The position numbers and the translations under genes were made by a program. Below the pieces are notes generated by a model. The model was not told the DNA's origin. It ran no database searches and was given only the letters and a program-made list of their open reading frames with translations. A DNA stretch of 64,000 nt from Desulforudis sp. (GTDB taxonomy: Bacteria > Bacillota > Desulfotomaculia > Desulfotomaculales > Desulforudaceae): NCBI GenBank assembly GCA_019084485.1, contig JAHRFU010000050.1, forward strand, positions 62,001 to 126,000. The letters run 5' to 3'. Positions 2,888 to 52,652 of this stretch are shown piece after piece (position 1 is the first letter of the stretch; each line of letters begins with the position of its first letter).

Positions 2888-3100
2888 CTATTTGGTTAGG
2901 GTCAGGATCCATTCCTCGTCCCGGTCTTCGACCTGCACCGTCCAGCCCTGGCTGGTTGCCAGGCGCTTGATGTTTTCCCGGGCGGCCTCCGAATCAGCAA
3001 TCGCAACTACCGTTCCCTTACCCTGGACCTCGATTTGCTTTTTGACCATCAGCATTGGCTCCGGGCAACCCAATCCCCGGCAATCTACAGTGTTAACCAC
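2888..3100 (-). CDS. TusA/SirA/YedF-like sulfurtransferase family protein
   Basis: VDCRGLGCPEPMLMVKKQIE motif, 70 aa. Confidence 0.9.
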   Translation of the reverse strand: MVNTVDCRGLGCPEPMLMVKKQIEVQGKGTVVAIADSEAARENIKRLATSQGWTVQVEDRDEEWILTLTK

Positions 3101-4175
3101 CTTCAGTCACCCTCCTCTGCTGCAGTACTCTGGCTCCGGACAGCGCAAATCCGATGATTAGAACGACCACCAAGCCGGCAACGACTGCGATCTGCCCGTT
3201 TGGCGAAACCCCGGCCGGACTGGCGGCAAGCCCGAAGTTATGGGCAGCGGCGCCACCGAGAATGATGCCGAAGATCGTTACAGCCGAATCAGTGTTTCCT
3301 TCGGAAGCCGAGATCATTTGGCGCAGGGGGCAACCGGCGATCATGGTGAAACTGAGCCCCGCCAAGGCCATCCCGAGGAAATTCCACAATCCGTCGCTGT
3401 GGGCGATCGGCTGACCCTCAAAGCCGACTGTGAAGTTTCCAAGTACCAGATTACCAATCAGCGCTGCGATGAAGATACCGACCATTCCGAACATTAGGTA
3501 GGGATCCCGGAACATAATCAGGTCACGGATTGGGCCGATCAAGCACATCCGGGTACGCTGGGCCAGGATGCCCACTACCAAACCCGCGCCGAGTGAGAGC
3601 AGGAGCGGGGCGCGCATTGAGGCAGGCCCTTCGGAACTGTACAAGAAAATCGTAGAATTAAACAACAATAATCCTAGCAGAACCAGAAAGATACCAGGGA
3701 GTACGTAACCGTGGGCAGCGTTTTGGCGGACAGCCCGTCCCAGGGTAAAGCCCCGATTGATAAACCAGATTCCAGCGACAATACCCGCTATCAGCCCAAC
3801 GAGTCCGACCCAGGCGTTCAGGTCTCCGGCGGACATCCGAAGCAGCATCCGGAGCGGGCAACCTAGGAAGACCAGCAAGCCGATCATGCCGATAAATCCG
3901 AGGAGAAACCGGGTCAGGGTGCTGGAACCGCCGACAGACCGATACGACCGGGTAACCAGCGCCGCAGCGAAAGCCCCGAGGATAATGGCCGGGATTTCCG
4001 GCCGAATGTACTGCAGTTTGTCAGCACTGTGCAGACCCAAACCACCAGCGGTGTCTCGTAGAAAACAAGCGATACACAGTCCCATGTTGACTGGGTTACC
4101 GAAGACCATTAAGATAATCGCCAGTGCACCAACCGTAAGCCCGGCTACGGTGATAAGTCCTTTTCCCTTTAGCAT
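3093..4175 (-). CDS. yedE: YedE-family putative selenium/sulfur transporter
   Basis: Multi-pass YeeE/YedE protein with GCPLRMLLRMSAGD and GCPLRQMISASEGN motifs; start re-set to MLKGKGLITVAGL after RBS agaggtgatcc; overlaps the tusA-like ORF. Confidence 0.85.
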   Translation of the reverse strand: MLKGKGLITVAGLTVGALAIILMVFGNPVNMGLCIACFLRDTAGGLGLHSADKLQYIRPEIPAIILGAFAAALVTRSYRSVGGSSTLTRFLLGFIGMIGLLVFLGCPLRMLLRMSAGDLNAWVGLVGLIAGIVAGIWFINRGFTLGRAVRQNAAHGYVLPGIFLVLLGLLLFNSTIFLYSSEGPASMRAPLLLSLGAGLVVGILAQRTRMCLIGPIRDLIMFRDPYLMFGMVGIFIAALIGNLVLGNFTVGFEGQPIAHSDGLWNFLGMALAGLSFTMIAGCPLRQMISASEGNTDSAVTIFGIILGGAAAHNFGLAASPAGVSPNGQIAVVAGLVVVLIIGFALSGARVLQQRRVTEGG

Positions 4176-4198
4176 TGGATCACCTCTTGCTATTAAAA

Positions 4199-4291
4199 TG
4201 GAGGAGGGAAGTGGGAATCGAACGCCACCCCCGCCGTTAGGCATGGCCAGCGGATTTGCATTCCGCGGGGAGCACCAGCTCCATTCCCTCC
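4199..4291 (-). tRNA. tRNA-Sec-like tRNA with Cys anticodon GCA (U73, CCA encoded)
   Basis: GGAGGGAA/TTCCCTCC 8-bp acceptor, T discriminator and CCA; D-arm GGAGC-TGGT-GCTCC; anticodon arm GCGGA-ATGCAAA-TCCGC (GCA); long variable arm CCATGCC-TAAC-GGCGGGG; T-arm GTGG(c)G-TTCGATT-CCCAC with one bulged C. Confidence 0.9.
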
Positions 4292-4566
4292 AGGTTAAGA
4301 GTTTGAACTGACCACAGTACCCCCTTTCCGATAGATCCTTACAGAAGATCTTATTTCCCGCATCTCATATAAGAATCCTTTATTGTACTAATTAAATTCT
4401 GTTATAGATAGAGCGACGGAAAGCAAGACAGCAGCAGGAAACGGGGATAGGCTGCTGTTTCCCGCATAAGGACACACAGTTCCTTGTTGATGCAATGTTG
4501 CATATAAGGGATTGGTTAGAAACCTCGGTAGAGAAAAGATGCTACCTTCAAAGCACCAACACTTGC

Positions 4567-4857
4567 AGGTGCAGTGCGCGCTGAGGGATTGCCGGAACAA
4601 ACGATCGGGAGACTTGTAATGACAGTACGCCTTCGGGGCTTTCGAACTCTGAAAAGCTTGTATTTTGATACAAAATCTAGAGACGTCTCAATTGGACTGT
4701 GTCCAATCAAAAATGCACAGTGAGCCGCGGATCAGCGTCGACCGCCTGTCTGAGTGAGCGCAGCAAGCGAGTTCGGCGACGCCCGAGGCGAATGAGCAGA
4801 TTCATCTGTCACGTACGTGTTTGCGTAGGCAATCCCTCAGGAAAGCGTACAGCACCA
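4567..4857. repeat. dispersed element with ~40-bp imperfect terminal inverted repeats, copy 1 (carries a ~90-bp internal insertion)
   Basis: AGGTGCAGTGCGCGCTGAGGGATTGCCGGAACAAACG ... CGTGTTTGCGTAGGCAATCCCTCAGGAAAGCGTACAGCACCA; core shared with 13242-13442. Confidence 0.85.
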
Positions 4858-4892
4858 CACACAGTATGCTTGGAAGAGGAGTGTGTTGAAAA

Positions 4893-5141: not shown

Positions 5142-5157
5142 GGTTTCGGTTAAAGCC

Positions 5158-8100
5158 ATGTCCAACCCGAAGTTTGTGCATTTACACGTCCATTCCCCTT
5201 TTTCCTTCCTGGACGGGGCTTCCTCCATCGAAGACCTGGTCGCCGCGGCCGCCCGTTACGGTATGCCCGCCCTGGCCCTAACCGACCACAACAACGTCAG
5301 CGGGGCGGTGCGTTTTTACCGGGCCTGCGTGGCTGCCGGGATCAAGCCGTTGCAGGGAGTTGAGATTACCCTGGAGGGTGGGGCCCACCTGACGCTCCTG
5401 GCCGACGGGCCGGAAGGTTACGCCAATCTCTGCCGTTTGTTGAGCCGTGCCCACCTGGACTTCCCGTGCGGTGAGCCGCAGGTGGCCGAGACTGTGCTTG
5501 CAGCCCACAGCACTGGCTTGCTGGCCCTTTCCGGTTGCCGCCGGGGGGAAATCCCGGCGCTACTGCTGGCCCGGCGTTTTGCCGAGGCCGAAAAGGCGGC
5601 CCGCCACTATGTGGAGGTCTTCGGGCGGGACCGGTTCTTTATCGAGTTGACTCACGACCTGCTCCCGGGCGGGTCAGCCCTGAACCGTTCTCTGGCGGAA
5701 CTGGCAGAACGACTGGACCTCGGCCTCGTGGCTACTAACAACGTCCATTACCGGGCGGGGACGGACTTTCCCATACACGACCTTCTGACCTGCATCCGCA
5801 ACGGGCTTACCGTGGAGGAGATCCACCCCGAGCGGCGGCTGAACGCCGAGCTTTACCTTAAATCACCGGAAGAGATGGAGAGGCTCTTTTCCGCCTATCC
5901 CGAGGCCTTGGCCCGGACCCTGGAAGTGGCCGAACGCTGTCGCCCGGCACTGGACTTTGAGCACTGCCGCCTGCCCAGCTATCCCCTGCCGCTGGGCAAA
6001 AACGCCGCCGTACTCCTGCGTACGCTGGCCTACCGCGGGGCTCGTAAGCGCTACGGACAGTTGAACGCCAGAATCGAGGAACGTCTGGAGGGTGAACTGC
6101 ACGTCATCTGCAGCCTGGGCTACGAGGACTATTTTCTGATCGCCTGGGACGCCTCGAACTGGGCCTCCCGCCAGGGCATCCGCCACGCCGGGCGGGGCTC
6201 GGCTGCGGACTCGGCCGTGGCCTACTGTCTGGGGATCACCGAGGTCGATGCCTTTGGCCGCGGTCTTTTGTTTGAACGGTTCCTCAGCCTGGAACGGGCT
6301 GGCGCGCTCGACATTGATATCGATTTTGACGCCCGCCGCCGGGATGAAGTCTCTGCCTATGTCTGCAGTCGGTACGGCCCCGAGCATACAGCCTGGGTAG
6401 CCACCTACAGCACCTTCCGCGCCCGTTCCGCAGTACGCGAGATCGGCAAAGTCCTGGGGTTTCCAGCGGCGGAACTCGACCGCCTGGCCAAGCGGTTTCC
6501 ACACATCGCCGCCGATGACATCGGGCAGGCGCTGGAATTCTACCCTGAACTGCGGCACCCCGATTTTCGACGCCCCGAATACCTGGAACTCTACCGGTAC
6601 TGCGCCGCGGTGGCTGGTTTCCCCCGGCATCTGGGCACCCATCTGGGCGGGATTGTGATCAGCCGTCAGCCGTTGGCCGAGATTTCGCCCCTGCAACAGG
6701 CCGCCAAAGGGGTGACTACCGTCCAGTTTGACAAGGATGACGTGGAGGACCTCGGACTCCTGAAATTTGATATCCTGTCGCTGCGTACGCTGGGGGCGGT
6801 TGATGAGGCCGTTAGTTCCATCCGCCGCCGGGATCCGGGTTTCAGCTATGACCGGATTCCGGACAATGATGCCGAGACCTACGGACTTCTGCGTAGCGCT
6901 GAAACGGTGGGGGTTTTCCAACTGGAGAGCCCGGCGCAGCGGGCGCTGCAATCGCGCCTGGGGGCCGACAATATGGAAGACGTGGTGGCCAGTGTGGCGC
7001 TGATCCGGCCCGGTCCGGTCCAGGGGAACATGGTTGAGCCTTATATCAACCGCCGCCAGGGGAAAGAGACCGTAACCTACCTGCACCCGAAGCTTGAGCC
7101 GATCTTGGAGAAGACCTACGGGGTGGTGTTGTTCCAGGAACAGGTGATCGCCATTGCCAAGGCGGTGGGTGGTTTCACACCGGGTGAGGCTGACCGGCTC
7201 CGGCGGGTGATGAGCAAGCGTCGTTCGATGCAGGAGATGCAGGCCATCGGCGGGGATTTTGTGACGAAGGCTGTAGCTAACGGGGTTGAAATCGGTACGG
7301 CACGCCGGATCTTCGAGTGCCTCAAGGGGTATGCCGGCTACGGTTTTTGCGAGGCGCACGCCGCGGCTTTCGCGACCACGGCCTACCGCACCGCCTACCT
7401 AGCCCAGCACCATCCAGTCGAATACTTTGCGGCCATCCTCTCCAACCAACCCATGGGCTACTATCATCCGGACACGATCTGTAACGTGGCCAGGAGCCGC
7501 GGTGTGGAAATTCGGCCGCCGGATATTAATATCAGTGGAGCCGGGTTTGCGGTTGAGGACGGGGCGATCCGGGTGCCGTTGTCACGGGTGCGGGGGATGA
7601 CCGGACCGGTGCTACAGGATATGTTGCAGTCACGGGAAGGCCAGGGCCCCTTTGGTTCTTTCGGCGACTTCAGGGAGCGGGTGCGGGCACCGGCGGATAT
7701 CCTCGTGAATCTGATCCTGTGCGGCGCTTTTGACTCTCTACACCCGAACCGGCGGGTACTCCTCGCCGGGCTGCGGGAAGCACCGGCCTTAAAGGAAGGC
7801 CTGTTTCCGGATCACCGGGGGACGGCGGGTGAAGGCGAGAAATGGCCGGATTTCAGCCCAGGGGAGAAACGCGCTTATGCCTACCAGGTGCTTGGGATCA
7901 ATACCGGTCTGCATCCAGTCGCCTCGCTGCGGCAGAAACTGGCCGCACATGGCTGTCTGAGCAGTGCGGAGTTGAAGAATGTGCCTGACGGCCGGGAGGT
8001 CAAGGTGGCGGGGATCGTGATCCAACCGCACCGGCCCCCCACACGCAGCGGACGCATCGTCGTCTTCTTCTCCCTGGAGGATGAATGCGGCCTCACCGAC

Positions 8101-8259
8101 ATCACGATGTTTGAGGAGTGTTACCGCAGAAGCGGTTGGATTCTCTTCGCCGGGGCCGGGGCTGTGATCGTGCAGGGAACGGTGCAGCGGCGGGGAGGGG
8201 TCGCCGTTATCGCCAATCAGGTAAACAGTCTGTGGCAAACAAAAAACCGGCACTTTTAG
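5158..8259 (+). CDS. dnaE: DNA polymerase III alpha subunit, DnaE family
   Basis: PHP domain FVHLHVHSPFSFLDGASSIEDLVAAAARYGMPALALTDHNNVSGAV; polymerase motifs DIDIDFDARRRDEV, GVVLFQEQVIAIAKAVGGFTPGEADRLRRVMSKR. Confidence 0.95.
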   Translation: MSNPKFVHLHVHSPFSFLDGASSIEDLVAAAARYGMPALALTDHNNVSGAVRFYRACVAAGIKPLQGVEITLEGGAHLTLLADGPEGYANLCRLLSRAHLDFPCGEPQVAETVLAAHSTGLLALSGCRRGEIPALLLARRFAEAEKAARHYVEVFGRDRFFIELTHDLLPGGSALNRSLAELAERLDLGLVATNNVHYRAGTDFPIHDLLTCIRNGLTVEEIHPERRLNAELYLKSPEEMERLFSAYPEALARTLEVAERCRPALDFEHCRLPSYPLPLGKNAAVLLRTLAYRGARKRYGQLNARIEERLEGELHVICSLGYEDYFLIAWDASNWASRQGIRHAGRGSAADSAVAYCLGITEVDAFGRGLLFERFLSLERAGALDIDIDFDARRRDEVSAYVCSRYGPEHTAWVATYSTFRARSAVREIGKVLGFPAAELDRLAKRFPHIAADDIGQALEFYPELRHPDFRRPEYLELYRYCAAVAGFPRHLGTHLGGIVISRQPLAEISPLQQAAKGVTTVQFDKDDVEDLGLLKFDILSLRTLGAVDEAVSSIRRRDPGFSYDRIPDNDAETYGLLRSAETVGVFQLESPAQRALQSRLGADNMEDVVASVALIRPGPVQGNMVEPYINRRQGKETVTYLHPKLEPILEKTYGVVLFQEQVIAIAKAVGGFTPGEADRLRRVMSKRRSMQEMQAIGGDFVTKAVANGVEIGTARRIFECLKGYAGYGFCEAHAAAFATTAYRTAYLAQHHPVEYFAAILSNQPMGYYHPDTICNVARSRGVEIRPPDINISGAGFAVEDGAIRVPLSRVRGMTGPVLQDMLQSREGQGPFGSFGDFRERVRAPADILVNLILCGAFDSLHPNRRVLLAGLREAPALKEGLFPDHRGTAGEGEKWPDFSPGEKRAYAYQVLGINTGLHPVASLRQKLAAHGCLSSAELKNVPDGREVKVAGIVIQPHRPPTRSGRIVVFFSLEDECGLTDITMFEECYRRSGWILFAGAGAVIVQGTVQRRGGVAVIANQVNSLWQTKNRHF

Positions 8260-13241: not shown

Positions 13242-13442
13242 AGGTGCAGTGCGTGCTGAGGTATTGCCGGAGCAAACGATAGGGAGTAAGATCAAAAATG
13301 CGCAGTGAGCCGCGGATCAGCGTCGACCGCCTGTCTGAGTGAGCGTAGCGAGCGAGTTCAGCGACGCCCGAGGCGAACGAGCAGATTCATCTGTCACGTA
13401 CGTGTTTGCGTAGGCAATCCCTCAGGAAAGCGCGCTGCACCT
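13242..13442. repeat. dispersed terminal-inverted-repeat element, copy 2
   Basis: Near-identical core to 4707-4857; termini AGGTGCAGTGCGTGCTGAGGTATTGCC ... GGCAATCCCTCAGGAAAGCGCGCTGCACCT. Confidence 0.85.
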
Positions 13443-13750
13443 CACAACAAGTTTCATCATTGGTGGTGCCGGTCGTTGGAATGGCCGACATCTAAGGAAC
13501 TACAGTACGGGGCCTTCGGTAAATGCCGGGGGCTTTTTCTTTTGGCAGGGTGTGCCTTAGTTGTATAATCCAGCTTTAGGCCGGAAAAAATTAACCCAGA
13601 GGCGCCAACCCCTGTGAATAATGGAAAAACAAGCAATAGGCAGAAAAATGCCGGAATAGCTTGTCTGGCACCCAAATTTGTGGTGCAAGGCTGAATTCGC
13701 TGAAAATCCAAGGTTTGCGTTTGGGGGCCAGCCTACGTATCATAAAGGTA

Positions 13751-52576: not shown

Positions 52577-52652
52577 TGGAGGCGGCGGGCGGAATTGAAC
52601 CGCCGAATAACGGTTTTGCAGACCGTCGCCTTAGCCACTTGGCTACGCCGCC
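52577..52652 (-). tRNA. canonical tRNA-Cys (GCA)
   Basis: GGCGGCG...ACGGT-CTGCAAA-ACCGT...CGCCGCC-TCCA. Confidence 0.95.

Follow-up and report, generated by a model that had tools for sequence, protein, structure and literature searches.

A selC*-type cysteine tRNA upstream of the selenium gene yedE in Desulforudis sp.: a candidate for selenium-responsive Cys-for-Sec recoding

The closest described relatives of the tRNA considered here form the selC*/tRNA-ReC family, which reportedly goes back to Mukai 2017 and Vargas-Rodriguez 2018, the latter being said to have supplied the name tRNA-ReC, and whose published UGA-recoding test was reportedly done in E. coli. In reviews, selC* tRNA-Cys are described from anaerobic Firmicutes and others (PMC7609411), and the tRNA-Sec-like tRNA-Cys(GCA) of Desulfotomaculum nigrificans decodes UGA with cysteine, being delivered by SelB and not by EF-Tu (PMC11415595). 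A tRNA-Sec reading UGC, which is a different tRNA, is known from Aeromonas salmonicida (PMC11415595). On the side of selenium physiology, YedE and LysR_Se follow the use of selenium (PMC5322559); selenium starvation raises yedE mRNA in an archaeon, where HrsM, the LysR_Se ortholog, keeps Cys isogenes repressed as long as selenium is available (PMC11097638). The tRNA family is therefore not new in itself, and the reviews leave its cellular role open; we found in them no mention of a yedE-yedF setting. What the present locus adds is a putative tRNA-yedE-yedF unit together with a candidate tandem operator common to lysR_Se, selD and yedE.

The window (the whole stretch of 64,000 nucleotides that was analysed) carries on its minus strand an intact tRNA gene with exact limits at 4199-4291, encoded CCA and U73 included, which reads GGAGGGAA U GGAGC UGGU GCUCC CC GCGGA AUGCAAA UCCGC U GGCCAUGCCUAACGGCGGG GGUGGcG UUCGAUU CCCAC UUCCCUCC U CCA. 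The 8-bp acceptor, UGGU D-loop, long variable arm, GCA anticodon and U73 that an earlier note on this DNA had listed are all present. The 5' strand of the acceptor stem, GGAGGGAA (4284-4291), pairs perfectly at eight of eight positions with the 3' strand, UUCCCUCC (4203-4210), which is followed by U73 at 4202 and CCA at 4199-4201. The D-arm (4269-4282) consists of five covarying pairs, GGAGC/GCUCC, closed by the UGGU tetraloop, and the anticodon GCA (4257-4259) sits in the loop AUGCAAA. The long variable arm spans approximately 4228-4248, its stem register differing among relatives, and the T-arm GUGGcG-UUCGAUU-CCCAC (4211-4228) has five pairs and a single bulged C at 4224, a detail missing from the earlier note, so that the acceptor branch is of the 8/5 type plus a bulge. 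Single-strand folding (z = -2.5) recovered the expected acceptor, D and anticodon stems. Scoring by covariance models, which the earlier note had recommended, places the gene above the cutoff of the Rfam tRNA-Sec model RF01852 (48.6 bits against 47, E=1e-6), and a model of its own family gives 97 bits, the window tRNA being one of the 16 sequences of that model. ARAGORN called five tRNAs in the window but passed over the Sec-shaped one; a standard tRNA finder can overlook genes of such build. An open frame running through the tRNA into yedE (ORF 3093-4244, 383 aa) is unconserved in relatives and was taken as chance.

We regard it as nearly certain that this gene belongs to the selC* tRNA-Cys/tRNA-ReC kind, with which it shares the tRNA-Sec-like body, the 8-bp acceptor, the long variable arm, U73 and GCA. 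It also resembles that kind in its occurrence beside Sec machinery and a canonical tRNA-Sec, and in its origin from anaerobic Firmicutes. The earlier note was thus right in seeing a tRNA of Cys identity with tRNA-Sec architecture, and this description fits the published family (reviews PMC7609411 and PMC11415595). Two differences should be mentioned: in place of the 8/4 build with A51a that the review gives for selC*, a bulge reported as dispensable, the window tRNA has 8/5 and a bulged C, and the gene appears to head a yedE-yedF unit and not selB*/cysS*. Canonical tRNA-Sec (selC, RF01852) resembles it in overall fold, in the 13 acceptor-plus-T pairs and in the UGGU D-loop, but the window tRNA has GCA instead of UCA, U73 instead of G73, a D-stem of 5 bp, one pair shorter than that of the genome's own selC, and a shorter linker. 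Allo-tRNAs likewise combine an unusual acceptor branch with a long variable arm; they differ by serine identity and a 12-bp branch (8/4 or 9/3), compared with 13 pairs (8/5) and U73 here. The Aeromonas salmonicida tRNA-Sec also joins a tRNA-Sec body to a GCA anticodon, yet it reportedly delivers Sec at UGC, while the window tRNA has Cys identity.

Fifteen other genomes of the order carry this tRNA, likewise with GCA, U73 and an encoded CCA. A covariance model built from these and the window tRNA (16 sequences) matches in 65 of 113 class genomes and in about 28 of the 399 genomes of a phylum sample, the latter count comprising matches of at least 78 bits plus two weaker ones, of which the one inspected has GCA and U73. 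Scanning genome contigs with a DNA pattern added Deltaproteobacteria, Actinomycetota and others. Two builds can be distinguished: a delta type, 8/4 with a bulged A, which agrees with the published description, and a Desulfotomaculia type, window tRNA included, which is 8/5 and has either no bulge or a single bulged base whose position varies. Of the 29 stem pairs, 16 show two-sided changes among the 16 relatives, six of the eight acceptor pairs included; for 74 distinct sequences the number rises to 22 of 29 and 96% of cells are paired, the alignment in this case having been fitted to the model. U73 is present in all 112 distinct family sequences scored (112/112); a script read the anticodon as GCA in 85 of them and as UCA in 16, the remaining 11 having GCA on the printed sequence. 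All 28 genomes of the phylum sample that were counted as tRNA-bearing encode SelA, compared with 256 of 399 overall (hypergeometric P 2e-6, uncorrected for kinship). Two other candidate correlates were discarded: the T-stem pairs 49-65/50-64 as a SelB signature are uninformative, G-C/U-A being common to selC, selC* and also tRNA-Ser, and a SelD with UGA offers no contrast, since nearly every SelD listed for the phylum has the TGA, tRNA or not. One genome holds three copies of the tRNA, two of them each ahead of its own yedE (loci L227 and L231; the third in G071). At five loci (L039, L043, L045, L048 and L218) a Shine-Dalgarno-like GGGAGGTG lies about 30 nt before the tRNA, and we found no purpose for it.

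The host organism is a selenocysteine user. A genome search suggested in the earlier note recovered selA, selB, selD and a UCA selC from the same 2.34 Mb assembly: the true UCA selC scores 76 bits, SelA adjoins SelB, and the SelD frame (locus L257 1405-2448, minus strand) contains a single TGA at the active-site Cys/Sec position, GGGUAAKIGP. The joint presence of selC, SelA, SelB and a UGA-containing SelD is the basis of this statement. There is one full-length CysRS, and the canonical tRNA-Cys(GCA) that had been noted at 52577-52652 is confirmed on the minus strand by ARAGORN and by RF00005 (68.5 bits). The genome has one LysR_Se (NF040786, 278.9 bits), near the end of another contig.

A position directly upstream of yedE, which the earlier note had missed, gives the tRNA its genomic context. 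The CCA is followed after 23 bp by the ATG of yedE (3093-4175, minus strand), a putative selenium transporter matching TIGR04112 seleno_YedE with 477.9 bits (cutoff 200), whose end is overlapped by a gene for a TusA/YedF N-domain-like protein (2888-3100, minus strand; TIGR03527 selenium_YedF, 4.7e-15, below cutoff). This spacing suggests a tRNA-yedE-yedF transcription unit headed by the tRNA. The arrangement recurs: among the 113 class genomes searched, 22 of the 50 having both place the tRNA within 400 bp of a yedE match, where about 0.04 would be expected, and in 21 of those 22 it lies directly upstream and co-directional. In a single genome outside the class the tRNA stands between yedE and yedF, delta-type copies have selB downstream, one copy is downstream of selD, and LysR_Se is upstream of the tRNA in several relatives. 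In three genomes (loci L055, L217 and L238) the tRNA adjoins a gene for a 2-hydroxyacyl-CoA dehydratase-like anaerobic reductase, of which the L055 copy matches NF040772 (double-cubane cluster) and the L217 and L238 copies are similar by eye.

An AT-rich block is conserved in the aligned upstream regions of the window's family, and inspecting the upstream regions of all copies pointed to a palindrome, in which we recognize a candidate operator. Its first palindromic half, ATAAAGGATTCTTAT (minus read, 4369-4383), is the only exact ATAA-N7-TTAT of the window, and a second half, ATAACAGAATTTAAT (4391-4405), lies 22 bp from the first. The exact core is upstream of 48 of 111 distinct tRNA copies, against about 4 in shuffles and 0-9 for other spacings, the latter being the fairer control as the motif was picked after inspection of the same sequences. 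A spacing of 22 bp dominates among second sites (48), most other offsets reaching at most 8, with lesser peaks at 13 and 31. Of the yedE-linked copies 18 of 20 have the core; the figure is 29 of 59 for the remaining non-delta copies and 1 of 32 for the delta type. The core is also present upstream of lysR_Se and selD in the host genome, with weak second halves there; a looser tandem site, a form that has no shuffle control, occurs at 26 of 40 yedE genes without adjacent tRNA, and the exact core at 1 of 10 lysR_Se genes tested in relatives. A sigma-70 promoter scan returned nothing convincing. Paired palindromic sites of such a layout are typical of LysR-type regulators. The tandem site is likely to be a LysR-type operator, and LysR_Se its likely regulator.

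Taken together, the activity reported for the D. nigrificans tRNA and the selenium-gene setting with its operator make a selenium-responsive substitution of Cys for Sec the simplest reading, and a recoding tRNA co-expressed with selenium uptake is the explanation that we favour, with moderate confidence. CysRS would charge the tRNA with cysteine through U73 and GCA, as reported for the family. By analogy with D. nigrificans, the tRNA-Sec-like body would be carried by SelB rather than by EF-Tu, and cysteine would be placed at SECIS-marked UGA codons; since a GCA anticodon forms no normal pairing with UGA, this reading would depend on SelB. LysR_Se, if it binds the tandem operator, would act through it on the tRNA-yedE-yedF unit: under low selenium, uptake of the element would be raised and the unit co-expressed, and selenoproteins, the UGA-containing SelD included, might be finished with cysteine instead of stalling. 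The evidence hence suggests that the physiological role of the tRNA is to let Cys replace Sec under selenium scarcity. It is more tentatively that we extend this proposal to a single LysR_Se-controlled operon which imports selenium and broadly swaps Sec for Cys at UGA, as part of a selenium-starvation regulon whose working arm would be the tRNA and which would parallel, at the level of translation, the way HrsM switches archaea between Sec and Cys isoenzymes; this wider version may hold, and we would lean slightly against it at present. Setting and operator nevertheless offer a concrete and cheap hypothesis, namely selenium-dependent Sec/Cys switching at the same UGA codons, which, if true, would amount to a stop-codon reassignment tuned by nutrient supply.

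Of the competing explanations, the one that survives best is improbable in our judgement: the tRNA could be a plain extra Cys isoacceptor, delivered by EF-Tu to UGU/UGC, with its adjacency to selenium genes a historical by-product. The GCA anticodon and U73 suit such a function, and in some genomes a family copy does lie beside ordinary tRNA genes. However, the genome already has a full canonical tRNA-Cys, the tRNA is limited to SelA genomes in the phylum sample, recurs beside yedE, selB or selD and shares the operator, and the reported D. nigrificans relative does not use EF-Tu (PMC11415595). We give somewhat less credit still to a tRNA-like element acting mainly in regulation or processing within the yedE leader, for instance by RNase P/RNase Z cutting or as a charging sensor. 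The short distance to the yedE start and the co-directional arrangement in 21 class genomes would agree with this; on the other hand, in many cases the family member is distant from yedE or its genome has no yedE, and U73 and the cloverleaf are kept throughout the family, CCA in nearly all.

Serylation of the tRNA by way of its long variable arm, followed by SelA conversion and entry of Sec at UGC/UGU, is very unlikely. SerRS in general reads long variable arms, which speaks for this option, as does the UGC-reading tRNA-Sec of Aeromonas salmonicida (PMC11415595). Against it stand U73 in place of G73, a D-stem with one pair fewer than the selC of this genome has, and Cys identity elements that the whole family conserves. 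The ambiguous Cys/Sec decoding of UGU/UGC entertained in the earlier note finds no support: U73 and GCA point to CysRS, the genome owns a complete UCA selC/SelA/SelB/SelD set, and in D. nigrificans the relative reportedly works the opposite way, placing Cys at UGA via SelB (PMC11415595). The interpretation of that note accordingly stands for Cys identity on a Sec architecture and is disfavoured for Sec at UGU/UGC. A pseudogene or assembly artefact, to which the missing ARAGORN call might point and which the earlier note had considered as a degenerate gene or base error, can practically be dismissed in view of perfect stems, covariation and near-identical genes in separate genomes and assemblies.

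Returning to the surroundings of the proposed recoding tRNA, a repeat of about 70-95 bp, whose copies are 94% identical, is found in the window at 4776-4870 and 13361-13446 and beside lysR_Se on another contig (L261 227-295). Because this near-identical repeat flanks both the window tRNA and the LysR_Se of the other contig, a rearrangement is plausible, and the repeat may mark the break that parted lysR_Se from the tRNA-yedE unit. Finally, window positions 5152-8256 encode a DnaE-type DNA polymerase III alpha subunit; the error-prone polymerase subfamily is among its best matches, and both scores lie under the curated cutoff.
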